From positions 2,976,001-3,040,000 of the forward strand of contig NZ_CP101751.1 in NCBI RefSeq assembly GCF_024496085.1: a stretch of 64,000 nucleotides of DNA. Reading direction: 5' to 3'. The first letter of the stretch is position 1. Each line of letters begins with the position of its first letter. This document shows, piece after piece, positions 10,018 through 53,206 of the stretch. Source of the stretch: Flavobacterium cerinum. Lineage in GTDB: Bacteria; Bacteroidota; Bacteroidia; Flavobacteriales; Flavobacteriaceae. The notes below the pieces were generated by a model, which searched no databases, had not been told where the DNA came from, and saw only the letters and a list, made by a program, of their open reading frames with translations. The position numbers and the translations under genes were made by a program.

Positions 10018-10433
10018 CTATTGCTCCATTTTTTCGGAAATTTTCCCGAAACTGGATATTAGCATGGATACACAGCAAAAAGACTTGTCTCTGCTATGGG
10101 TTTCTGTAGCTTTTTTAAATAAATCAAACATCCATTGCCTTCTGCTTTCAGGTTCTGTTTGTATAGCTTCTAAAATATTTTTGCTTTTAAATTTTTTAAA
10201 ATCTCTTATCAGATCTGATAATTTGCCATCTTTCGATTGCACTATTAAATGAATGTGATTACTCATGATTACATAACCATACAATATCATTCCCTTTCTT
10301 TTATACAATAATCTAAAGAAGAAACTACGATATCTTTATAAACCCTTCTTGTGAAAACATCTATCCAATCTACTACCGTACAAGTAATAAAATGCGGTTT
10401 TTCCTGATCTTTTATAGTATAGCCTTCTTTCAT
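10018..10433 (-). pseudogene. Frameshifted, truncated REP-associated tyrosine transposase (RAYT/IS200-like)
   Basis: From the ATG at 10433 the reading gives MKEGYTIKDQEKPHFIT followed by VVDWIDVFTRRVYKDIV, the usual N-terminus of Bacteroidota RAYT (Tnp_Y1) proteins. That frame stops at about 10290. The HUH motif NHIHLIV and the following segment continue in a neighbouring frame, so one base has been lost, probably in the A/G run near 10295. Downstream the normal C-terminus is missing: the catalytic Tyr helix (usually near YIHQNPVRAG) does not occur, and the protein runs into unrelated sequence 8 bp from thiD. It is therefore inactive as a transposase. A REP-like hairpin lies just upstream at 10515. 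Confidence 0.82.
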
Positions 10434-10449
10434 TAAGTATTATTTTCTT

Positions 10450-10543
10450 CTCAAAGTTGGGAGACTCTCAGAAACGGGATAAATTTAAGAAAAATTGTTT
10501 AGGTTGATATTGCTCAAAGTCAGGAGACTTTGCGCAGCGGGCG
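10450..10543. repeat. REP-like hairpin and a degenerate second copy
   Basis: CAAAGTC-AGGA-GACTTTG at 10515-10532 is a perfect 7-bp stem with a 4-nt loop. A diverged direct copy, starting CTCAAAGTTGGGAGACT, lies at 10450-10480, and both are followed by a G-rich tail (gaaacggg / gcagcggg). Such short palindromes beside a RAYT gene are the expected substrate of that transposase family. Confidence 0.7.
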
Positions 10544-10755
10544 GATTTTATCTTTTTGGTTCCGTGCCCGTTTCTGTAATTCCCTGTGGCAGATTTTTGA
10601 TGCTTCTCATTATCCAAATGAGCGTCCAATTCTGCATCAAGCATATGCTCTACAGCCCTTTTATGCATTTCTTTGAAGAAAGAAGTTAAGTCTTCTCCAT
10701 TTTTAAAGGACTTGTAAAAATCCTTGTTGTTTAATAAGTCTTCTTTGTCGATCAT
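10468..10755 (-). pseudogene. N-terminal remnant of an IS256-family (mutator-type) transposase
   Basis: The first 68 or so residues read like the start of Bacteroidota IS256-family transposases: MIDKEDLLNNKDFYKSFKNG, then a Glu-Asp-Leu segment, KRAVEHMLDAELDAHLDNEK and NGHGTKKIK. Intact members are around 400 residues and carry a DDE domain. Here the homology ends at about 10550, and the frame runs on through the REP hairpin to a chance stop. The whole catalytic domain is gone. The upstream side still holds an element-like end and a large hairpin. Confidence 0.8.
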
Positions 10756-11946: not shown

Positions 11947-12255
11947 TTACTTTTTTATGATCATGATCACTTCTCTAATTTGATTTGTACCGTTTTCAAT
12001 TCCGATTTTTACCGGTTTTTGTTCGCGATAACTCTTTGAAAGCTTATTTAAAAGTTGAGGGAAATTTTCCGTTTTTGAAGATAAATAAAAAACCTGTGCG
12101 CTAATACCAAGCGCGATTCTGTAGTTTTCGGCATTTTCTTCATCCTTATTTATAGCATTAACAACAATTTTATCATACCAGATAATACTTTTGGTAGACT
12201 TTGAGCAGGAAAAGCACAAGATTATTAACAGTAATATAAAAATTCTATTTTTCAT
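11947..12255 (-). CDS. Small lipoprotein resembling a stand-alone protein-glutaminase propeptide
   Basis: 102 residues. A signal peptide ends in a plausible lipobox (CFSC, Cys17), so a lipidated envelope protein is likely. The mature part matches the propeptides of the two protein-glutaminases next door. YRIALGISAQVF corresponds to LKITFKLHAQFF in one enzyme and YFKVSFILSHQLF in the other. A Glu/Lys-rich helix follows, and then PVKIGIENGTNQIREV corresponds to LNVYLKEGTNEIIKV and LRFLLRPQTNEIVKI. There is no catalytic domain after it. In the C. proteolyticum enzyme the propeptide blocks the active site until it is cleaved. A free copy could therefore act in trans as an inhibitor, self-protection factor or folding helper. 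The homology is read by eye; the role is inference. It lies 54 bp after a glutaminase gene, beyond a hairpin. Confidence 0.75.
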   Translation of the reverse strand: MKNRIFILLLIILCFSCSKSTKSIIWYDKIVVNAINKDEENAENYRIALGISAQVFYLSSKTENFPQLLNKLSKSYREQKPVKIGIENGTNQIREVIMIIKK

Positions 12256-12272
12256 TTTTCAAATATAAAAAA

Positions 12273-12297
12273 GAGATCCCTTTAAAAAAGGGATCTT
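12273..12297 (-). terminator. Hairpin between glutaminase 1 and the propeptide-like gene
   Basis: AGATCCC (12274-12280) pairs with GGGATCT (12290-12296) around an A/T loop, with a T-run on the minus-strand 3' side (TCTTTTTTAT). It could terminate or attenuate transcription, so the downstream small gene would be expressed at a lower level by read-through or from its own promoter. Confidence 0.7.
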
Positions 12298-12309
12298 TTA
12301 AAAAATCAG

Positions 12310-13371
12310 TTAAAAAGAACAAAAAGACACGTCCGGTGCGGGCGTAGGTGTACAATCTTTATATCTCATAAAAACATTTAGCACACAATCTGTATTTCGA
12401 TATTCATCATCATACATAAAGAGTTTTCCTTTCGGACCTCTGTAATATGTATCCCCGGAAGTATTCGCATATGAGACAATATTAGTTTCTCCACAGTTGG
12501 AATTGGTGCATGCCGCTCTCCAATCAGTTTCTGTAACAGGACCATCTTTAAATAACGAAGGGTCAATAATTCGTTTTTGGATTTCTCCTGAATCATCTTT
12601 ATAACTAACCAAAACAGCAACATGATAGCACCAATTTACACAACAGGCTTTATCAAGACTTTGTGCTCTTAAATTACCGTAGACAAATTGTTTCTCACAG
12701 TCATATCCATTCTCTGTTAAGATTTGCCTCATTTTATGCGCCCGGGCATAACAGCCATCAACAGGATAGCGAAACGGAATGCATTCTTGTGTAAATGAAT
12801 GAAATATCCAACAGGACTCATTTCTAATTCGTTCATACATTAGTTTCAATGTATTCAAATCCGGTAGTACAGTTTGTAAATTATTTGCTACTCCTACTCT
12901 TTTAGTCTTAAATCTTGCGTTGAAAGACTCTTGTTCAGCTGCAGAAACTTTGTCTACTTTTATAATCTCATTAGTTCCTTCCTTTAAATAAACATTCAGC
13001 ACCAAACCTTTAGACATCGCATTCTTTACTAATTCAAAATAGCCATTCGTTTCTTCCGTCAATACCATTGTAAAAAACTGAGCATGTAATTTAAATGTAA
13101 TTTTTAAATCATTTCCTACTTTGGTAACTTTAAGAACACTACCTTTAAAAGAAGGCTGTCCATTCCTTGCCGATTCCTGTGTCGGAAAATTCTTTTCTGA
13201 ATCGATATTTGAAAAAGAATCCGTGTTTGAACAGTCTGTAAATAAAACAGCCAACATTACTACTATAACTACTATTTTCAGATTAACAGCTTTATGATTT
13301 TGCTTTTTTCGTTTTAAATCAGGTATATTCTCTACACTAACTTGGCTTTGATATGATTTTATTTTTAACAT
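12310..13371 (-). CDS. Pro-protein-glutaminase (protein-glutamine deamidase), paralog 1
   Basis: 353 residues. The C-terminal ~185 residues closely match the secreted protein-glutaminase of Chryseobacterium proteolyticum (EC 3.5.1.44), which converts protein-bound Gln to Glu and releases ammonia. The visible triad is Cys207 in RYPVDGCYARAHKMR, His250 in CYHVAVLV and Asp270 in RIIDPSLF. Cys pairs and the C-terminal PTPAPDVSFC tail are conserved. Residues about 75-145 are the propeptide domain (KLHAQFF ... KEGTNEIIKV), which is probably removed by proteolysis near residue 163. The N-terminus is odd: 30 basic residues precede a single hydrophobic segment (31-46) ending in FTDC, a poor lipobox, so membrane anchoring or ordinary secretion are both possible. 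An upstream promoter element is shared with paralog 2. Confidence 0.92.
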   Translation of the reverse strand: MLKIKSYQSQVSVENIPDLKRKKQNHKAVNLKIVVIVVMLAVLFTDCSNTDSFSNIDSEKNFPTQESARNGQPSFKGSVLKVTKVGNDLKITFKLHAQFFTMVLTEETNGYFELVKNAMSKGLVLNVYLKEGTNEIIKVDKVSAAEQESFNARFKTKRVGVANNLQTVLPDLNTLKLMYERIRNESCWIFHSFTQECIPFRYPVDGCYARAHKMRQILTENGYDCEKQFVYGNLRAQSLDKACCVNWCYHVAVLVSYKDDSGEIQKRIIDPSLFKDGPVTETDWRAACTNSNCGETNIVSYANTSGDTYYRGPKGKLFMYDDEYRNTDCVLNVFMRYKDCTPTPAPDVSFCSF

Positions 13372-13445
13372 AAAAATACTTTCATTTTGTTTATAATTTA
13401 TTTGAGATTAAGGCCGAATCAGAAAAACCTTAACTTTTCATTTCC

Positions 13446-13484
13446 CAAATCTATTTGTATTAAATTATACACATTATGCATAAT
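13446..13484 (-). promoter_or_regulatory. Glutaminase 1 promoter with shared 28-bp block
   Basis: On the minus strand TAGATTTG (13446-13453) is an exact TAnnTTTG -7 element, about 75 bp before the start codon. Directly upstream, 13457-13484 holds a block starting GTATTAAATTAT (plus-strand reading) and ending in the perfect palindrome ATTATGCATAAT. It matches 24 of 28 bases of a block at the paralog promoter. The block covers the -33/spacer region, a good place for an operator. Confidence 0.72.
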
Positions 13485-13567
13485 CATTTCTTATTCTACT
13501 CTTAAGAAAATTAAATTTATTAATATTACTAATCCCTCTCATTATTAAACATTTACAACGCTTCACA

Positions 13568-13786
13568 ATGATTAGCAGGGCTCTTACTAAAATCAGATTA
13601 TCAAGACTTGAAAAGAATTATTCTCAAGAATATATAGCTTCAAGATTAAGCATATCTCAAAGTTATTATGGACGTATTGAAAACGGTAAAAAAGAAATTA
13701 CACTTAAATGTTTATTACAAATACTCGAAATTTTAGAAATAGATTTGGTTACTTTTTTTAGTCAGATTAAAGGTATATCACCTTAA
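13568..13786 (+). CDS. XRE-family helix-turn-helix regulator, 72 residues
   Basis: A single HTH_3 domain and nothing else. KNYSQEYIASRLSISQSYYG is the helix-turn-helix, followed by RIENGKKEITLKCLLQILEIL, the typical rest of a Cro/CI-type fold. It lies between two protein-glutaminase genes, divergent from paralog 1 and convergent with paralog 2. Both glutaminase promoters carry the same 28-bp block, so this regulator is the obvious candidate to bind it. The lack of a sensor domain suggests control by abundance or by a partner protein. Regulation of the glutaminases is inferred from position. Confidence 0.88.
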   Translation: MISRALTKIRLSRLEKNYSQEYIASRLSISQSYYGRIENGKKEITLKCLLQILEILEIDLVTFFSQIKGISP

Positions 13787-13863
13787 AACTATATATATAA
13801 CAATCTAATTTACAACGCCTTTTATTCAAAATATGGGTTCTTTTTAAAGGATAAGGTTTTCTT

Positions 13864-14826
13864 TCAGAATCCACAGTGCGATACATCCGGAGCCGGTGAA
13901 GGATAACATCCTACGAGGTTTTTAAATGTTTCCAATACACAATTTGTATTTTTATATTGCTCATCAAATAAATAATAATCACCGGCTTCATTTCGGTAAT
14001 ATACATTTCCAGGCACAGTCGAAAATGATGAAATATAGCTCGTTCCACAAGATGAAGCCGTACAAGCAGCTCTCCACATTTCTGCACTTATAGGAGCATC
14101 CTTGAATAACGATGGATCAATAATCAGTTTTTTGATTAAACCTCCCGTTGAATCTTGATATCTTATTTGTACAGCAACATGGTACCCCCATTCAACACAA
14201 CAATCTTTCACTTCATCTTTAGCTCTTAAATGACCATAAACAAACTGTTTTTCACAATAATAGTTATTACTCTCTATTATTTTCCGCATTTTATGCGCTC
14301 TTGCATAACAACCGTCAACCGGATATCGGAATGTAATACAGGTATCCGTTACAGTTAAATCTTCTGAACAGGATTCACTTTTGATTTTAGCAAACAATTG
14401 ATCTAAGGCTTCATTTCCAACTACAACTCCTATCTCTAAAGGAGGTAATGACAGCTCCGGATTTTTTTCAGGATGAAAAGAGTTAAAATAACTCGTATCA
14501 CTACCGGTAAGATTTTCAATCTTTACGATTTCATTTGTTTGAGGTCGTAACAAAAAACGTAAAGGTTCTTTTTCAGCTATTGCGTGTTCAATTTGATTGA
14601 TATAAGCCGAATTTTCAGCATTTTTTTTGATTTTAAAGAGCTGATGTGATAAAATAAATGAGACTTTAAAATAATCCCCATCATCTATTATTTTATCCGG
14701 AATATACCGATATATTATCCGACTTTCAAGATTAACAACCTGATCTTTTATCAAATCTTCTTTTCTATTGCAACCAATTACACTTAATAATAGCATTGCT
14801 AATACAACCACAATTTTTTTCTTCAT
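13864..14826 (-). CDS. Pro-protein-glutaminase lipoprotein, paralog 2
   Basis: 320 residues, with the same architecture as the other glutaminase. A clean lipoprotein signal (SVIGC, Cys19) is followed by NRKEDL; a Lys followed by two acidic residues just after the Cys resembles the surface-export signal of Bacteroidota lipoproteins. The propeptide domain is at about residues 50-108 (FILSHQLF ... RPQTNEIVKI). The catalytic domain has Cys173 (RYPVDGCYARAHKMR), His216 (WGYHVAVQI) and Asp237 (LIIDPSLF) and ends in PSPAPDVSHC. All triad residues are intact. It is probably a surface- or periplasm-tethered protein-glutamine deamidase. Its promoter shares a 28-bp block with paralog 1. No intact signal for type IX secretion is present. 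Confidence 0.93.
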   Translation of the reverse strand: MKKKIVVVLAMLLLSVIGCNRKEDLIKDQVVNLESRIIYRYIPDKIIDDGDYFKVSFILSHQLFKIKKNAENSAYINQIEHAIAEKEPLRFLLRPQTNEIVKIENLTGSDTSYFNSFHPEKNPELSLPPLEIGVVVGNEALDQLFAKIKSESCSEDLTVTDTCITFRYPVDGCYARAHKMRKIIESNNYYCEKQFVYGHLRAKDEVKDCCVEWGYHVAVQIRYQDSTGGLIKKLIIDPSLFKDAPISAEMWRAACTASSCGTSYISSFSTVPGNVYYRNEAGDYYLFDEQYKNTNCVLETFKNLVGCYPSPAPDVSHCGF

Positions 14827-14982
14827 AATTATTTAATTTATTGATATCCGTGTCCAGAAACAATCCTGCTTCCTAAACAGCTCTAAATCTTAAATACCTG
14901 AATTACTATTGGTTAAAAAAGTCCTTTTAATAAAACAAGAACTTTTGGTATCACTAAATTCTAATTACTTTACTCCATATCC

Positions 14983-15021
14983 TAAAACTAATAGTATTAA
15001 ATTATTCACTATATGTATAAT
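14983..15021 (-). promoter_or_regulatory. Glutaminase 2 promoter with shared 28-bp block
   Basis: 14994-15021 matches the glutaminase 1 block at 24 of 28 positions (GTATTAAATTAT, CAC, TATG and ATAAT are common). The following minus-strand TAGTTTTA (14983-14990) fits 7 of 8 positions of TAnnTTTG and has the same 3-bp offset from the block as at paralog 1. It lies about 157 bp before the start codon. Confidence 0.65.
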
Positions 15022-15106: not shown

Positions 15107-15691
15107 TTATTTTGCCATAAAATCATTTGCCTCAAAAAATACAGTCCGGATTTCTTTTTCAAACTTCTTATAATCGAGGTCATCTGCATCCGGATTATTA
15201 AGGGATATAAACCGGATTATTCCGCCATCAACATTTTTATAAAAATCAAAAACCTGGAATTTTTCAAAAGTATAGCGGGATAAAAGCTGATCTTCCGTTT
15301 GCTTATAACTCACAGATGCATAGTTATCTTTTATATCTTCAATTGACATCCCTTTATAATAGAATCCAAAAATAGTAGCAAAAGTCGGCTGATTACTATA
15401 CATAAACAGAAATTGTTCTGTGTATTTTTTAGGATTCTTATAAAGCAGAATCTGCTTCATTTCCGAATTTTTAAAAAAGATGTATTCTTTATCCACCCTA
15501 TTGTATACATAATCACCATAGGTATAAAAATTCATTTTCTGCTTCCCTCCATCAAACGTCAATTGAAATTTATTAAACCGATCATTTTGGTCGGAGGCCA
15601 CTTTTTTTTGTCCGCCCTGATAATAATAATTGGCACATCCGGATAACAGGAATAAAAATGTGACATATAAAATTTTTAATAATCCTTTCAT
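15107..15691 (-). CDS. Lipoprotein of unknown function
   Basis: The start was placed at the ATG at 15691, giving 194 residues, because it is followed at once by a proper lipoprotein signal (MKGLLKILYVTFLFLLSGC). A longer frame from 15775 adds 28 residues without signal character. The mature part is rich in Tyr, Phe and Lys and begins ANYYYQGGQKK. No known domain was recognised. It is monocistronic, with a hairpin after the stop. Envelope location is clear; function is not. It lies upstream of the glutaminase 2 promoter, so a link is possible but unproven. Confidence 0.75.
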   Translation of the reverse strand: MKGLLKILYVTFLFLLSGCANYYYQGGQKKVASDQNDRFNKFQLTFDGGKQKMNFYTYGDYVYNRVDKEYIFFKNSEMKQILLYKNPKKYTEQFLFMYSNQPTFATIFGFYYKGMSIEDIKDNYASVSYKQTEDQLLSRYTFEKFQVFDFYKNVDGGIIRFISLNNPDADDLDYKKFEKEIRTVFFEANDFMAK

Positions 15692-15878
15692 AAGTTTTAT
15701 GATCAAGTAAAATGTAGCGGTAAAGCTACATAATTGTATCGATATTTTATTATTTTCATACATTACAAGTTTCAAAATTCTGCCAGTATAAAAAAAAGTT
15801 TATCTTTTCTTATGGCTTTTCACAATAAGATCTAGTGTTATTTCTCTTCTTTTAACCTTTCAAAAGCATTTAATTATT

Positions 15879-16277
15879 ATGGAAGAAAATAAAAAGGAAA
15901 AAAAGACCAACGAAAAAGTCTTTTACCGAGATCTAACAGTTAAGGTTACACAATTTCGCTACATAACTGATAATAAAACTTATGTGATAAAAAACATTTC
16001 ATTTGTTACAATTAATAAGATTATTGGATGTCGATTTTGTGCTAGGTTTGTAATAATTACAGGTTTTATCGCACTTTTTATCCCAAATGATTTTCAATTA
16101 ATTATTGGTGCAATTTTAATTGTCTTAGGTGTTATATGGCATATCTGTATCAAGGATTTATTTACTGTATGTATTGGAACAAATGGAGCAAGAATAAACA
16201 GCATTACTTCTAGCGATGAAAATTATATCAAAAAGATTGTTGATGCCGTAAACCAAGCGATTATTCATAGAGGTTAA
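15879..16277 (+). CDS. DUF6232-like small membrane protein
   Basis: 132 residues. The N-terminus has KVFYRDLTVKVTQFRYI and TYVIKNISFVTI, the beta-rich start typical of DUF6232 proteins. Two hydrophobic helices follow (about residues 55-72 and 75-93), then a short soluble tail with an IVDAVNQAI helix. Function is unknown for the family, which often accompanies phage-defence or toxin-type accessory loci. It is monocistronic, followed by a strong terminator. The family call is from memory of the pattern. Confidence 0.7.
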   Translation: MEENKKEKKTNEKVFYRDLTVKVTQFRYITDNKTYVIKNISFVTINKIIGCRFCARFVIITGFIALFIPNDFQLIIGAILIVLGVIWHICIKDLFTVCIGTNGARINSITSSDENYIKKIVDAVNQAIIHRG

Positions 16278-47800: not shown

Positions 47801-50360
47801 CAAATGTATATTCGAAATTATTTTCTCCCGGTAAAAGGTTTAGTAAAGTTCCCGATAATTGCTGTAAAGTTCCAATATCAATCGGGTTACCCAATCCGTC
47901 TCTTTTCGTTCCTATAATGGATACCGCTCCTAATAACGCTAAACCACTATATTCCGAACCTACTTTAACCGTTACCGGAGTTCCTGACGGAATTGTTGTA
48001 TTCCATTGTATATTTTGCCAGGTTGTTCCTATTCCTAATAGTCCCAATCCGGTTGTAATGGTCGAAAAAGTCTGTGGATTACGATCAATCGCTAATGTTC
48101 CGTTCATAACACCTCCGGTAATAATCGAACCGGAAGTCTGTGTATCGGCATAAACACGATCTAAAAATACCGGACAATTCGCCGGATCCACAACGTTTAC
48201 TGTAACAGAAAGGCTAACCGAACATAATCCGTTATTTGCAACAGCAGTAAAGGTATAATAACCGGCTGTAGTAAACGGACCGGCTACATTAGATGCTAAA
48301 GCAGTACCGCTCTGATTATACCAGGTTACTGTTCCATTTGAAGTCGATTGTAACGTAACCGAATCTCCCAGGTTAACCGTATATGTTGCTGGTGTTACTT
48401 GTAGTGTCGGTAACGGATTTACAGTTACCACTACAGGCAAACGATCTGATATACAAGCATCAGCCGGATTAAACGCTTCAATATAATAGGTTCCGCTTGT
48501 TGTAATATTTGCAGCTGCGGTAGCCGTAATCGGGTTGTTACTACTATCATAGAATGTATAGGTTGTTGCACCCGAAGTATCAAAATTAGTAATCGCATCT
48601 CTCAGGTTCACAAAACCACAACCCGAGATTATAGCCGATACCGTTAAAGGTGTCTTTACACCCAAACCAACCTGTACAGCAGCTAATGTATTTACTGCAT
48701 TCTCACAGGCACCATTCACTTCTACAGCGATATAATAATTCCGCGGTGTATTGCTAGCATTTAATCCGCTAATGGCTAGTGTTCCGAGAATATTATTTTT
48801 AACATAGGTAAGTCCCGGATGTCCTGAAAAACCATTCGTAATTTCCTCCGTTTTGTTCTGATCCGTATAATATTTAAAAACGCCACCTGTTAAACTCGTG
48901 GTCGGTTCTAAAAGAGCCACTCCCGCACAGGATGCATTTACATTCGCACTAATCGTAATATCCGACGCAATCGGAAGTGCGTTTACAGTTATCGTAACCG
49001 GAACTCTTTCTGACAATCTCGCACAACCGATTTGACGGCTAGCCACATAATAAGTAGTCGTAGCGGTTACCGTTGGTGAATACGTTTGATTGTATGCTGT
49101 TACTGCTACAGAAGCTCCTGTCAGACTATTAAACCAAACCAATTCATTTGTAGATGCTGTTGTCGCAGATAAAGCAACCGATTGACTACCACAGACAGCC
49201 ATATTAGCCGTTACTGCTGTAGGTTTAGCCGGTGATCGATAGACATCAAATATTTTAACCGTTTTGGTTACATTGAGTTGTACCAAAGACGAAATTGTTA
49301 CCCGAACCCGGTCAAAAGCTTGTCCCGGACTAAATGCAACATCTGTTTTTGCACCGGAACTGAGTAACCCGAGGAGATCGAGATTAACTAAAGATCCTAA
49401 TCCCGACGAATAGACGACACTTGTTCCTGATAAAGCTTCTATCTTAATTCCATCCGAAACACCCAGATTAAGCAAAGACGGATCGTCAAGTTGCAATACC
49501 AGATGAAACTGGTCGGTTGCTCCTGATGGTGTTTGAAAATACATGGTTTGACTAATGGTTCCAGCCACCGTCAATACACCCTGACTCACCTGAGAAAAAG
49601 TAGTATCACTATTATCTATTGCAAGATTCGGGTTACTTACTCCTGCTCCTCCTACTCCTAAAATATCAACTGTTCCTCCGGTACCGTCAAATGAAGTAGC
49701 AAAAGCCGGATTACAAATATCAGATCCTGAAAAATGGAACGCACTATAAACACGTAACGTATTAATGGTTCCCAGAAGCAACGTATTCGTGTAATCCTCA
49801 ATTTCAATACTATTATAAGCGACACTTGGTGTAATTGCGATATAATAAAATCCGTTAGCACCATATACAAGACGTGCATTTTCATTTGCAAAACCATTGA
49901 TAGATGAGGCAGTAAATACCGGTGTTGCATTTCCGGTTTCTTTAGCCCGAACCTCAAAATAGTGGTTTCCAAGCGCAATAGTTCCGGTCAGATTCGCCAA
50001 TGCTCCTCCCAAACCACCTCCTAAGAGTGTATTTAAAAGCGTTGCATCCGTTTGAATCCGCACATAAGTTGTAGTTCCTGCCGGTACAGTAGACGGGAAT
50101 CCCAATTCTATCCTACCGGTATACGAACCTAAGTTAATCGCAATACCTCCGTAGGATTCCAGTGTGGCATAATCGGTTGTACTAACCGAGACAGCATTAC
50201 CCGGCGCAGCTACATGGCTGTTGTTCCCGAGCAGTTGATTCGCATATATATAACTCACCTGGGCATGGGAGTTAGTATGAACGAAAAAGAAAAATGCCAA
50301 AAAGAGCAGATAGAGCCTTTTAAAACATTTTTTCAGGGTAAAATTCCAATTCATAAGCAA
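41853..50360 (-). CDS. Giant T9SS type B surface protein with fifteen 79-residue repeats (SprB-like)
   Basis: 2835 residues. An N-terminal signal peptide ends near NSHA. Two or more large beta-sandwich domains follow (about residues 40-330 and 720-1050), then several Ig-like (PKD/SprB-type) units with the motif YYLxxxRSGCEVLDRTPITIT. Fifteen almost identical 79-residue repeats, each starting NDAPTPTTNDTTQDFC and containing IWYNAPTGGT and SGCESSVRLAV, span 42780-46323. The end has a DUF11 domain (TVDNPTPFIDDNVVFTITV) and a gliding-motility-type sorting domain (NEFTPNEDGANDVFTIKC ... GTYYYVF). It should be exported by the type IX system. PorP/SprF and OmpA partners follow. An adhesin or motility role is inferred. 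Confidence 0.92.
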   Translation of the reverse strand: MLMNWNFTLKKCFKRLYLLFLAFFFFVHTNSHAQVSYIYANQLLGNNSHVAAPGNAVSVSTTDYATLESYGGIAINLGSYTGRIELGFPSTVPAGTTTYVRIQTDATLLNTLLGGGLGGALANLTGTIALGNHYFEVRAKETGNATPVFTASSINGFANENARLVYGANGFYYIAITPSVAYNSIEIEDYTNTLLLGTINTLRVYSAFHFSGSDICNPAFATSFDGTGGTVDILGVGGAGVSNPNLAIDNSDTTFSQVSQGVLTVAGTISQTMYFQTPSGATDQFHLVLQLDDPSLLNLGVSDGIKIEALSGTSVVYSSGLGSLVNLDLLGLLSSGAKTDVAFSPGQAFDRVRVTISSLVQLNVTKTVKIFDVYRSPAKPTAVTANMAVCGSQSVALSATTASTNELVWFNSLTGASVAVTAYNQTYSPTVTATTTYYVASRQIGCARLSERVPVTITVNALPIASDITISANVNASCAGVALLEPTTSLTGGVFKYYTDQNKTEEITNGFSGHPGLTYVKNNILGTLAISGLNASNTPRNYYIAVEVNGACENAVNTLAAVQVGLGVKTPLTVSAIISGCGFVNLRDAITNFDTSGATTYTFYDSSNNPITATAAANITTSGTYYIEAFNPADACISDRLPVVVTVNPLPTLQVTPATYTVNLGDSVTLQSTSNGTVTWYNQSGTALASNVAGPFTTAGYYTFTAVANNGLCSVSLSVTVNVVDPANCPVFLDRVYADTQTSGSIITGGVMNGTLAIDRNPQTFSTITTGLGLLGIGTTWQNIQWNTTIPSGTPVTVKVGSEYSGLALLGAVSIIGTKRDGLGNPIDIGTLQQLSGTLLNLLPGENNFEYTFVPSNNTGPKAYDGIRIVIGSVLSVAQSARIYEAYYHKVADPVVCQPGDVEDVFYGNIDLGIGALTSTVGVTNAWNAVDNNHATFATMTTGVGVLAASELTVKFRSPSQENDVVKVRISRPSTILNLGLIAGFSIQRYMGNNPVGPLLDGNGSLLTLQLLNGGTEALLISNAQSPVFDRVRIRFGGVASVLNGLQVHSVTREAAVDVVGSGGDRIIEVCYGDVVSIAPIDCTTFNWYDAETGGNLITSGTSYTIPYSLAVGTHVYYLQPVRSGCEVLDRTPITITVRPTSPQTSVTGILINSATNTTICSPTGAVSLTAQLNSTPAVTNPVYYWYSFDGTNQTVISGQSTATLALTGLAPGTYTYYVGVSSDQFCATLPAERRSVTFTILPSSIATDITVSDVQACLVNPAPVTIQPTTTLTNPVFTWYFTNDVTQPITNGTVSGVTYSIAANGTLTISGLTTTNSPYTYYVAVTSETTCQNLPGTLQDVVVRMSDAPTPTTNDTTQDFCVVNNPTVASIQVNETGVIWYNAPTGGTVVTGTTPLVTGTYYGVLVDAVSGCESSVRLAVAVQVNDAPTPTTNDTTQDFCQSTNPTVASIQVNETGVIWYNAPTGGTVVTGTTPLVTGTYYGVLVDATSGCESSVRLAVAVQINDAPTPTTNDTTQDFCQSTNPTVASIQVNETGVIWYNAPTGGTVVASTTPLVTGTYYGVLVDATSGCESSVRLAVAVQVNDAPTPTTNDTTQDFCQSTNPTVASIQVNETGVIWYNAPTGGTVVASTTPLVTGTYYGVLVDATSGCESSVRLAVAVQINDAPTPTTNDTTQDFCQSTNPTVASIQVNETGVIWYNAPTGGTVVTSTTPLVTGTYYGVLVDATSGCESSVRLAVAVQVNDAPTPTTNDTTQDFCQSTNPTVASIQVNETGVIWYNAPTGGTVVASTTPLVTGTYYGVLVDATSGCESSVRLAVAVQVNDAPTPTTNDTTQDFCQSTNPTVASIQVNETGVIWYNAPTGGTVVTSTTPLVTGTYYGVLVDATSGCESSVRLAVAVQINDAPTPTTNDTTQDFCQSTNPTVASIQVNETGVIWYNAPTGGTVVTSTTPLVTGTYYGVLVDPISGCESSVRLAVAVQVNDAPTPTTNDTTQDFCQSTNPTVASIQVNETGVIWYNAPTGGTVVTSTTPLVTGTYYGVLVDATSGCESSVRLAVAVQVNDAPTPTTNDTTQDFCQSTNPTVASIQVNETGVIWYNALTGGTVVTSTTPLVTGTYYGVLVDATSGCESSVRLAVAVQINDAPTPTTNDTTQDFCQSTNPTVASIQVNETGVIWYNAPTGGTVVTSTTPLVTGTYYGVLVDPTSGCESSVRLAVAVQVNDAPTPTTNDTTQDFCQSTNPTVASIQVNETGVIWYNAPTGGTVVTSTTPLVTGTYYGVLVDATSGCESSVRLAVAVQVNDAPTPTTNDTTQDFCQSTNPTVASIQVNETGVIWYNAPTGGTVVTSTTPLVSGTTYYGALVDAASGCESSVRLAVSVQVNDAPTPTTNDTTQDFCKSTNPTVASIQVNETGVIWYNAPTGGTVVSGTTPLVTGTYYGVLVDAASGCESSVRLAVAVQVNDAPTPTTNDTTQDFCQTANPTVASIQVNETGVIWYSTPTGGTAIAASTPLTAGTYYGVLVDPTTGCESSVRLAVTVQFFNGTQATISGGSPTACIQDQVTYTTNTGMSNYVWVVTGGGQIVNGGTATDNTITVLWNQIGANTVNVSYSDANGCSTSNSAAMNLNVINCSDITITKTVDNPTPFIDDNVVFTITVTNTGQAQFQNIIVNEAIPSGYGFVSMVVSNGTYNNNTGIWTIPTLNANGVATLQLTVKVLFSGDYLNTATIASSEPTDVDVDNNTASASVEPKCLVVYNEFTPNEDGANDVFTIKCAEHFPNNTLEVYNRYGNLVYKTRYYQNDWKGISNVNGTFDGTVLPTGTYYYVFDTGDNSSTVKTGWVYIMR
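42780..46323 (-). repeat. Fifteen tandem 237-bp repeats
   Basis: The unit is 237 bp (79 residues). The codons for TTQDFC recur every 236-240 bp from about 46280 down to about 42960, fifteen times. Units differ mainly at a few sites (VVTS/VVAS/VVTG and DAT/DPT/DPI/DAA). The last copy (C-terminal) is the most diverged, and the third from last is one residue longer. The high nucleotide identity implies recent expansion or gene conversion, and likely length variation between strains. Confidence 0.95.
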
Positions 50361-50983
50361 TAGTTTTAAATTAGGTTAATTCTACAGTATATACATAAGT
50401 AGCCTGACAGCTTATAAAGCTGCCGGAAAGCCTTTAATCTTACATTTATGCTGTTTTATCTAAGTGTTAAATCGAAACTTATTCAAACAAAATGGCGATT
50501 ACTATAATTTTGGGATTTTTGCTGTACCGGATCAACAGATCATTCTCAAAAGACCTCTTTTACCTCTAAAAAGATTCGATACAAATGATATTCTTTACTT
50601 CAATAAATATTATTTTTTAACACTATTTAAATCAAATTCTAAAAAGCATAAAAACATATTATGTGAACTTTTATTTTTACTTCCATAAAAGTATTACACA
50701 TTTTGAGAATACACAAGAAAAAATTAAATTTAAATACATAATGTTAAAAAAAGTCTTACATATTTCGGTAATTACCTGTAATATAATACAGTATAATTTT
50801 ACAAATCTTAAAAATAACCTACAAAAAATAAGTAAAATTACGATATCAACATATTCACAAAATGTGAACTTTGTTTGAAAATAATCAAAAAATGCCAAAA
50901 TGAAACAAAATGAGATATTTCTATATTTTTAAGAATACTACAACATCGCAGTTTAAAAGAAGTATTTTTATTATTTTAGCCCT
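50361..50983. promoter_or_regulatory. Divergent intergenic region with repeated TGTGAACTTT-like motifs
   Basis: 623 bp of very AT-rich DNA between divergent units. The short frames present have no signal of coding. ATGTGAACTTT occurs at 50661-50671 and again at 50862-50872 (inside CACAAAATGTGAACTTTG). An inverted relative, ATTACACATTTTGAGAATAC, lies at 50693-50712. The three sites could be operators for the adhesin operon or for the operon starting at 50984. Confidence 0.4.
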
Positions 50984-51742
50984 ATGATTAAAATCGCTAT
51001 TATCGGCTCTGGTAATGTAGCCCAACACCTGATTACTGTTTTCCAAAAAACAGCGACTGTAAAACTGGTACAGGTTTTTGCCCGAAAAAAAGAGACCCTT
51101 AGTACTCTTGTTCCGGAAGCCTTAGTTACTTCCGATCTTTCGGGACTAAAAGAAGCTGATTTATACATTATTGCCGTATCTGACGATGCTATTTCTGATA
51201 TCGCCGCACAACTAAATTTTACCAATAAATTAATAGTCCATACCTCAGGTAGTTCCGGTATGGAAGTTTTAGGTAATCAAAACAGAAAAGGTGTCTTTTA
51301 TCCGTTACAGACTTTTTCAAAAACCAAGGCAGTCGATTTTAAGACGGTTCCCTTATGTTTAGAATGCGAAAACGAAGCCGACTACCAATTATTAGAAGCG
51401 GTTGCTAATGCTATATCCGATAAAGTTTACCGCATCAGTTCCGAACAAAGACAAAGTCTTCATGTAGCAGCTGTATTTTCCTGTAATTTTGTAAACCACC
51501 TGTATCAGATAGGTGATGAAATTTGTCGGGAAAACAATATCCCTTTTGAAATCCTTTTTCCGTTAATTCAGGAAACCGCGGATAAAATAAAAACATTGTC
51601 TCCGCAAGCCGCTCAAACCGGACCGGCAATCCGTAGAGATCAAAAAACAATCGAAAGACATCTGGCCTTTTTAAAGGATAATCCGGAACGAACAGAAATA
51701 TATCAACTACTAACAGAATCCATACAAAAAAATAATGACTAA
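50984..51742 (+). CDS. Rossmann-fold/DUF2520 oxidoreductase-like protein
   Basis: 252 residues. The N-terminal NAD(P)-binding domain starts IKIAIIGSGNVAQHLITVF and continues with DLYIIAVSDDAISDIA. The C-terminal DUF2520 helical domain has HVAAVFSCNFVNHLYQIGDE and QTGPAIRRDQKTIERHLAFL. It is built like pyrroline-5-carboxylate or F420-dependent reductases, but the substrate is unknown. It is the first gene of a five-gene operon; the next gene overlaps its end by 8 bp. Confidence 0.9.
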   Translation: MIKIAIIGSGNVAQHLITVFQKTATVKLVQVFARKKETLSTLVPEALVTSDLSGLKEADLYIIAVSDDAISDIAAQLNFTNKLIVHTSGSSGMEVLGNQNRKGVFYPLQTFSKTKAVDFKTVPLCLECENEADYQLLEAVANAISDKVYRISSEQRQSLHVAAVFSCNFVNHLYQIGDEICRENNIPFEILFPLIQETADKIKTLSPQAAQTGPAIRRDQKTIERHLAFLKDNPERTEIYQLLTESIQKNND

Positions 51743-52262
51743 GAGTTACAAAGAATTAATGAACGACATCACTACTTTTATTTTTGATGTCGATGGCGTT
51801 TTAACTGATGGTACAATACATGTAACCCAAACCGGAGAAATGCTCCGTCATATGAATATCCGCGATGGTTATGCTATGAAGGCTGCCGTAGAAAACGGCT
51901 ATACGGTTTGTATTATTTCCGGCGGTAGTAATGAAGGAGTTCGAATCCGACTTCGTAATTTAGGAATAACCGATATTTATCTTGGCGTACCCAACAAAGT
52001 AGAAACATTTGACGAGTTTACCGATATTTATAAGATCAACCCGGAGCAAGTACTTTATATGGGGGACGATATTCCGGACTATCACGTTATGAAATTAGTA
52101 GGCCTGGCAACCTGTCCGCAGGATGCAGCACCGGAAATCAAAGAAATCTGCAACTATATCTCCCATAAAAACGGAGGTAAAGGTGCTGTTCGCGATGTGA
52201 TTGAACAGGTTATGAAAGTTCAGGGAAAATGGATGGAACATTTTGATGCTAAATACGATTAA
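51735..52262 (+). CDS. KdsC-like HAD phosphatase
   Basis: 175 residues. HAD motifs are FDVDGVLTDGTIHV (nucleophile Asp and general acid Asp), IISGGSNEGVRIR (motif II Ser, also substrate loop) and LYMGDDIPDYHVMK (metal acidic pair). The length and the absence of a cap match KdsC, which removes phosphate from 3-deoxy-manno-octulosonate-8-P in Kdo synthesis. Neighbouring genes do not include kdsA/B, so the substrate may be related rather than identical. It overlaps the preceding gene by 8 bp and lies 17 bp before the UbiA gene. Confidence 0.88.
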   Translation: MTKSYKELMNDITTFIFDVDGVLTDGTIHVTQTGEMLRHMNIRDGYAMKAAVENGYTVCIISGGSNEGVRIRLRNLGITDIYLGVPNKVETFDEFTDIYKINPEQVLYMGDDIPDYHVMKLVGLATCPQDAAPEIKEICNYISHKNGGKGAVRDVIEQVMKVQGKWMEHFDAKYD

Positions 52263-52279
52263 AATCGAAGTACTATAAT

Positions 52280-53206
52280 ATGATGCCTTTTTTAAAATTA
52301 ATTCGCTATCAGAATCTGGTAATGATTGCGCTGATGCAATTGTTATTTCACTATGGTTTTCTAAAACAGCAACCCGGATTAATTCCGGCTTTATCGGATT
52401 TTCAATATCTATTATTAATAATAGCCACTATCTGTATTGCAGCCGGTGGTTTTGTAATTAATAATATTATGGATCAGGAAACCGATCGGATTGCAAAACC
52501 GAATAATCTGGTTGTAGGGAAATTTATTTCGGAAGCAGCTGCGTACAATATCTATATCGGTTGCAACATTATTGGTGTCGGTATCGGGTTTTACTTGTCC
52601 AACTTAATCGGAAAAGCCGGTTTTTCAGCTTTGTTTATCATCATTGCCGCTACATTATATCTGTATGCAACCAGTTTAAAACAAAGCTTACTTATCGGAA
52701 ATATTATTGTCGCCTTATTGCTTTCCGTTAGCGTTATCATAATCGGTATCTTTGATTTATACCCGATAATTAATGAAACGAATCAGGCACAACTAAGTGT
52801 TTTATTTCGTATCCTACTTGATTACGCCGTTTTTGCATTTATGATCAATTTTATCCGAGAGCTTGTCAAAGACATTGAAGATATGGACGGCGATTATAAT
52901 GCCGGAATGAATACCTTACCTATTGCCATCGGAAAAGCCCGTGCCGCTAAAGTTGCTTTTGCACTGGCATTTATCCCGATTGCAAGTTTGCTTTATTACA
53001 TCAACCAAAATCTTTTAGGATTACAATTTGTCTTGTTTTATTTACTGCTTTTTGTAATCGGTCCGCTACTCTATTTTCTGATCAAGATTTGGGGAGCGAA
53101 AAACAAAGCAGAGTTTCACCATCTAAGTCTTGTCTTAAAACTCGTATTACTATTCGGAATTCTTTCTATTGGAGTGATTACTTTTAATATGCACTATCAT
53201 GCTTAA
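52280..53206 (+). CDS. UbiA-family prenyltransferase
   Basis: 308 residues with about 9 hydrophobic helices. The two Asp-rich motifs that bind prenyl diphosphate with Mg are NNIMDQETDRIAKPNN and DIEDMDGDYNAGMNTLP. Flavobacterial members are usually labelled geranylgeranylglycerol-phosphate geranylgeranyltransferase. The real acceptor in these bacteria is not established, so it could act on menaquinone, glycerol phosphate or another substrate. Inner membrane. It overlaps the maf gene by 8 bp. Confidence 0.87.
   Translation: MMPFLKLIRYQNLVMIALMQLLFHYGFLKQQPGLIPALSDFQYLLLIIATICIAAGGFVINNIMDQETDRIAKPNNLVVGKFISEAAAYNIYIGCNIIGVGIGFYLSNLIGKAGFSALFIIIAATLYLYATSLKQSLLIGNIIVALLLSVSVIIIGIFDLYPIINETNQAQLSVLFRILLDYAVFAFMINFIRELVKDIEDMDGDYNAGMNTLPIAIGKARAAKVAFALAFIPIASLLYYINQNLLGLQFVLFYLLLFVIGPLLYFLIKIWGAKNKAEFHHLSLVLKLVLLFGILSIGVITFNMHYHA

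Follow-up and report, generated by a model that had tools for sequence, protein, structure and literature searches.

Protease removal of the propeptide converts protein-glutaminases (PGs) into fully active deamidases, and to our knowledge no role has been established for PG in the bacterium that produces it. According to excerpts of PMC13139226, the enzyme is sold commercially and the structure of its pro-form has been solved, and an excerpt of PMC13298967 indicates that the propeptide shields the active pocket. We analyzed a locus of Flavobacterium cerinum (assembly GCF_024496085.1, contig NZ_CP101751.1, positions 2,976,001-3,040,000 of the forward strand; this whole stretch of 64,000 nucleotides (nt) is called the window hereafter). 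The locus encodes two PGs (PG1 and PG2), a small XRE regulator, and a free-standing lipoprotein that is related to the PG propeptide. The closest described enzyme is the PG of Chryseobacterium proteolyticum (EC 3.5.1.44; Protein Data Bank (PDB) entries 2zk9, 3a54, and 3a56), which PG1 and PG2 resemble in family score, catalytic motifs, and possession of their own propeptide. The main finding is that PG and the propeptide-like lipoprotein, its "partner," form a conserved two-gene unit, of which we found no published description.

The inhibitors of MEROPS family I29 descend from cathepsin L-type propeptides. CTLA-2alpha, crammer, and BCPI are listed as propeptide-like cysteine protease inhibitors of this family in an excerpt of PMC4089206, and they share with the partner that they are free-standing and propeptide-like. 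In contrast to them, the partner is related to a propeptide of OB-like fold that belongs to a bacterial deamidase, has a lipobox, and is paired with the enzyme gene; no I29 model was present among its Pfam matches up to an E-value of 1. In some secreted effector-immunity pairs, the immunity protein is periplasmic or a lipoprotein. The PG locus is similar to such pairs in that the enzyme gene is followed by the gene of a small envelope protein, and in an orphan copy of the partner in Flavobacterium supellecticarium. It differs from them in that PG is made as a pro-form and its presumed immunity protein is a relative of the propeptide of that same enzyme. The genes of PG and partner are linked; protection of the producer would be expected of an immunity protein. 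A word search for a lipoprotein showed no mention of a partner gene in three PG papers (PMC6132073, PMC9396377, and PMC13139226), and in PMC13298967 "lipoprotein" refers only to a display construct; these sources are mostly open literature, so that absence from print is not established. PMC8834458 gave no match for propeptide or active-site words.

All the parts described in an earlier note on this DNA (two PGs, the regulator, the lipoprotein, and a shared promoter block) were found, as follows (coordinates are counted from the first letter of the window).

11947..12255, minus strand: propeptide-like lipoprotein of 102 residues, candidate PG inhibitor, with lipobox Cys17
12274..12296, minus strand: hairpin resembling a terminator (10 pairs, loop of 3, T-rich tail), in the gap that separates PG1 from the lipoprotein gene
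12310..13371, minus strand: PG1, pro-protein-glutaminase of 353 residues with intact Cys-His-Asp motifs, its mature part starting near residue 165
13439..13484, no strand assigned: candidate operator, a 46-nt block that precedes PG1 and lies between the divergent PG1 and XRE genes
13568..13786, plus strand: small XRE/HTH_3 regulator of 72 residues, divergent from PG1, outside the conserved core
13864..14826, minus strand: PG2, pro-protein-glutaminase of 320 residues with intact Cys-His-Asp motifs, its mature part starting near residue 131
14976..15021, no strand assigned: the 46-nt block again, here preceding PG2

The XRE gene thus sits on the plus strand between PG2 and PG1, both on the minus strand, and the lipoprotein gene comes after PG1, at a distance of 54 nt that includes the hairpin.

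The lipoprotein matched positions 39-109 of NF040782 (NCBIfam protein-glutamine glutaminase), which lie inside the propeptide, with an E-value of 6.5e-6 and 25.6 bits, far under the cut-off of 250 bits that is meant for whole enzymes. Comparison of an alignment of the lipoprotein with one of the propeptide (hhalign) gave a probability of 95.9% and an E-value of 5.4e-9 over 101 columns, and in a structure comparison the solved PG propeptide obtained the top score, in agreement with a propeptide-type fold. The likeness, on which the earlier note had staked its interpretation, therefore survived both profile and structure comparison. With only 102 residues and no match to PF18626, the protein lacks a catalytic domain. 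Relatives were found in 129 protein clusters; among the 120 listed, none had a precomputed Pfam domain, and those with a name were called hypothetical or uncharacterized, apart from one DUF4136 label.

The most conserved partner segments are IGIENGTN, QVFYLSSK, and GISAQVFY. The last of these (residues 50-57) aligns with the pro-PG segment containing Ala47, a residue that falls in the propeptide motif LTAQFY, as deduced from the sequences and from the title of a PDB entry for the A47Q1 pro-PG mutant. Residue 47 of pro-PG is reportedly located in the active site. The equivalent segment is kept in the partner as GIS-x-Q-x-FY; at the position corresponding to residue 47, 69 of the 120 clusters have Ala, 36 have Pro, 14 have Gln, and one has Leu. 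Among the 71 PGs that could be parsed by pattern (the other 49 of 120 were not parsed), 67 have Ala at this position and 4 have His. The Gln-bearing partners (at the equivalent of residue 53 of the lipoprotein) might themselves be PG substrates.

In a tree, which was rooted for drawing only, 21 free-standing sequences were split from 20 PG propeptides by a single branch (support 100/99). The ratio of nonsynonymous to synonymous substitution rates (dN/dS) of the partner had a median of 0.083 over 349 pairs, all below 1; for comparison, 219 pairs of the propeptide region gave 0.110 and 382 pairs of mature PG gave 0.031. Pairs were taken from all those among 66 loci if dS lay between 0.1 and 1. 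Profile, fold, and tree show that the lipoprotein is a separate, old gene related to the PG propeptide domain.

Conservation was surveyed in 173 genomes of a Chryseobacterium-like genus, which were searched with both a PG query and a partner alignment, the latter scoring only part of the first-look candidates. PG was found in 105 genomes and the partner alignment matched in 103 before filtering. We left out G605 (two pieces, with a frameshift), G587 (a relic with stops), weak matches in G532 and G497, and a second match of G524, located inside a 335-residue frame at its PG. A strong unbroken partner then accompanied PG in 99 genomes, while 68 had neither, 6 had PG without an intact partner (G343, G535, G554, G587, G605, and G612), and none of the 173 had a strong partner match without PG (Fisher test, 1.3e-41, a value that ignores the relatedness of the genomes). 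The partner was directly downstream of PG on the same strand in 99/99, at 55-95 nt including the stop codon (median 72).

Two peptide patterns, searched for in genome contigs, yielded 66 loci, 64 of them titled Chryseobacterium, one from a Weeksellaceae metagenome-assembled genome, and one from F. supellecticarium. A script placed PG directly upstream of the partner in 64 loci, with the partner 53-80 nt past the stop codon, except in L142 (4 nt), where it used an earlier start. Of the other two, L148 was missed through start choice although it contains one PG, and L084 has no PG. In L137, a PG identical at 298 of 299 residues to the crystallized pro-PG is followed by the partner 72 nt after its stop codon. 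The PG of L152 is identical to one named Elizabethkingia argentiflava and precedes a partner of 206 residues (L152:848-1465), which has an extra C-terminal Big_14 (bacterial Ig-like) domain.

Within the window's own genus, a 398-genome sample yielded the lipoprotein from no genome except that of the window (E-value 1e-6), part of the first-look candidates being scored, so that misses are possible. A 101-genome sample again gave only this genome, plus one weak match (E-value 6.6e-4). For PG, a sample of 101 genomes gave one clear carrier, also the window's genome, plus three weak partial matches. F. supellecticarium has the partner at the syntenic place, and no PG was found in its genome (query PG2, E-value up to 0.001); its partner is either a shield without a weapon or a leftover. 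No XRE match was found in this syntenic locus. The open reading frame (ORF) lists of L019, L030, L036, L085, and L152, for which a family search was not run, showed by eye nothing XRE-like next to PG. Thus, of the expectation that the genes would occur together elsewhere, the PG-lipoprotein pair holds (both genes in 99 of the 105 Chryseobacterium-like genomes that have PG), while the three-part set with XRE is not supported as a conserved unit.

Concerning the enzymes, PG1 and PG2 belong to the protein-glutamine glutaminase family, and deamidation is their predicted activity. They scored 317.8 and 326.3 bits, respectively, with NF040782, above its cut-off of 250, and 100.2 and 94.8 with Pfam PF18626 (cut-off 25). 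Both contain the motifs VDGCYARAHKM, YHVA, and IIDPSLF, including the catalytic Cys of the first, the His of the second, and the Asp of IIDPS; C173, H216, and D237 (PG2 numbering) were invariant in an alignment of 20 PGs. Alignment with crystallized pro-PG (3a54/3a56) covered most of the propeptide as well as the mature part, confirming that each has its own propeptide. They are different paralogues, as the propeptide tree grouped PG1 with P0106 (98/94) and PG2 with P0006 (100/98). Because the longest contigs of P0106, P0006, and a lipoprotein homologue, P0003, are equal in length (328,633), at least one further genome probably holds both paralogues and the lipoprotein side by side. At least 90% of 20 pro-PGs have in common an N-terminal lipobox-like Cys (C19 of P0005), and pro-PG itself may be a lipoprotein that is released on propeptide cleavage.

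PG-partner gaps of Chryseobacterium contain a hairpin, with a mean z of -5.5 over 63 gaps relative to letter shuffles. In 19 hand-chosen gaps, pairing holds in 96.3% of cells, and both-sided (compensatory) changes occur in 5 of the 9 pairs, although the structure was derived from the same 19-gap alignment that tests it, which favors the structure. The covariation score was reached in 0 of 500 shuffles and the number of both-sided pairs in 2 of 500, and the pairing was lost when one strand was slid. The window hairpin (12274-12296) is unlike that of Chryseobacterium in sequence and occupies the same place between the genes; terminator-like sites numbered 5 in the scanned window region versus 1.3 in shuffles.

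The block shared by both enzymes is 46 nt long and 80% identical between its copies (13439-13484 and 14976-15021). A 28-nt pattern made from both copies (4 free positions, up to 3 mismatches allowed) matched nowhere else in the 4.08-Mb genome, and its reversed control matched no site at all. The HTH_3 protein encoded between the PGs, where the earlier note had placed an XRE regulator, is a natural candidate to bind this putative operator. It is similar to the controller (C) proteins of restriction-modification systems, as far as excerpts describe them, in being a small HTH_3 protein with a divergent gene and a repeated upstream block, a likeness that is generic to HTH_3, since other models match equally.

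We favor, with moderate confidence, the view that the locus is an enzyme-plus-inhibitor unit, in which the free-standing lipoprotein inhibits PG. PG1 and PG2 would be exported as pro-enzymes and fully activated by proteolytic removal of the propeptide. The lipoprotein most likely folds into the same OB-like cap as the PG propeptide, and its GIS-A-Q-V-F-Y segment would enter the active site of PG that is mature or was cleaved too early, blocking the enzyme in trans. Excerpts of PMC13139226 suggest that the cleaved propeptide remains with mature PG, which makes inhibition in trans physically plausible. The lipobox points to a protein that is probably lipid-anchored through its N-terminal Cys, the hairpin probably determines how much inhibitor is made per enzyme, and the XRE protein probably acts on the blocks preceding both enzymes of the window. 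A self-protection part appears to be the best reading of the lipoprotein, which may, on weaker grounds, face the periplasm and shield the producer's own envelope proteins. The mean number of acidic residues at positions +2 to +7 after the lipobox Cys was 0.20 in 66 partners and 1.22 in PGs (59/66 loci parsed). In this phylum, the signal for lipoprotein export consists of acidic residues after Cys (excerpt of PMC5080379), so that the partner may be oriented toward the periplasm and pro-PG may be displayed as a lipoprotein on the surface, a weak reading as most PGs carry one acidic residue versus two in the minimal Capnocytophaga signal. A model of mature PG1 fused to the partner through the intergenic gap had a predicted template modelling score (pTM) of 0.70 and an unreadable domain placement, and speaks neither for nor against docking.

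No significant match was obtained in a PDB sequence search with the lipoprotein or its profile, so that the link to the propeptide needs profiles or structure. Several observations weigh against inhibition. The variability of the position-47 equivalent does not fit a strict Ala pseudosubstrate. The Bacteroides helcogenes pro-PG is active with its propeptide on, about 17-fold below the cleaved form (excerpt of PMC13139226), meaning that the propeptide need not inhibit fully. G343 (L030) and G612 have PG and no partner, and the partner is a relic with stops in G587 and frameshifted in G605, which indicates that it is dispensable in some strains; by eye, the PGs of these four resemble those of L085 and L147, which retain it. 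More distant PGs (G963, G554, and G535) have no recognizable partner.

We propose only tentatively an enzyme-immunity pair, in which PG would be dangerous to the producer or its neighbors and the immunity protein, derived from PG's own propeptide, would be a lipid-anchored shield of the envelope; PG would then be a weapon between bacteria and F. supellecticarium-like strains immune bystanders. The propeptide-type fold, the tight gene linkage, and the lipobox would also suit a folding or export helper, a propeptide-like chaperone keeping PG at the outer membrane until release. This is doubtful, because every PG already has its own propeptide, PGs without any partner exist, and F. supellecticarium carries the partner with no PG found; furthermore, Chryseobacterium and Bacteroides PGs were produced in Bacillus subtilis or Escherichia coli with no partner gene named in the excerpts of PMC13139226 and PMC13298967. 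It is unlikely that the lipoprotein serves some function unconnected with PG inhibition, such as glycan or ligand binding by an OB fold, and lies near PG through operon history, given the top structural score of the solved propeptide, the conserved GIS-x-Q-x-FY segment, and the lack of strong partner matches without PG.

A timing device or decoy substrate, setting the moment of PG activation rather than protecting the producer, is less probable still: the Gln found in 14 of 120 clusters could be deamidated by PG and the hairpin suggests dose control, but 105 of 120 clusters have Ala or Pro instead, and the partner has few acidic export-signal residues after its Cys. That the lipoprotein is propeptide-like only and adjoins PG genes might suggest a decaying remnant of a third PG that lost its catalytic half, an idea to which we give almost no credence. 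As an account of the family it is ruled out by the dN/dS values, the intact frame in 99 of 173 genomes, and the separate grouping from the 20 propeptides; it could fit only single broken copies, such as those of G587 or G605. The preferred interpretation, an inhibitor paired with its enzyme, retains from the earlier note the propeptide likeness and the co-occurrence of PG and lipoprotein, and drops the three-gene set with XRE. The partner directly downstream of a near-identical copy of the crystallized PG in L137 makes the role of PG testable. If the lipoprotein inhibits, it would be a natural, specific off-switch for a food enzyme, would be a likely explanation of the producers' tolerance of PG, and would provide a clean bacterial case of an inhibitor related to a propeptide.

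Other arrangements of PG genes were also observed. The PG frame is split and the partner intact in G410, G585, and G590. G554 (L183, L184, and L190) contains nine PG-like matches, several in a row, some of which (e.g., L184:4227-4916) comprise mainly the catalytic part, the propeptide being seemingly absent. Contig 9 of G606 (L186) has tandem PGs (49978-50922 and 51738-52661) with one partner between them (51007-51312).

Nothing pointed to a mobile or defense element: one scan of viral contigs with P0003 gave 0 loci, tblastn gave no match in plasmids, and no anti-phage model matched the PGs or the lipoprotein. Short ORFs on the minus strand of the window (10468-10755 and 10018-10308) resemble, by eye, truncated transposase pieces. 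On the other side, a lipoprotein-like gene (15107-15775) and a DUF6232 gene (15879-16277) adjoin the locus; relatives of both are present in the F. supellecticarium locus L084, with no PG between them and the partner.

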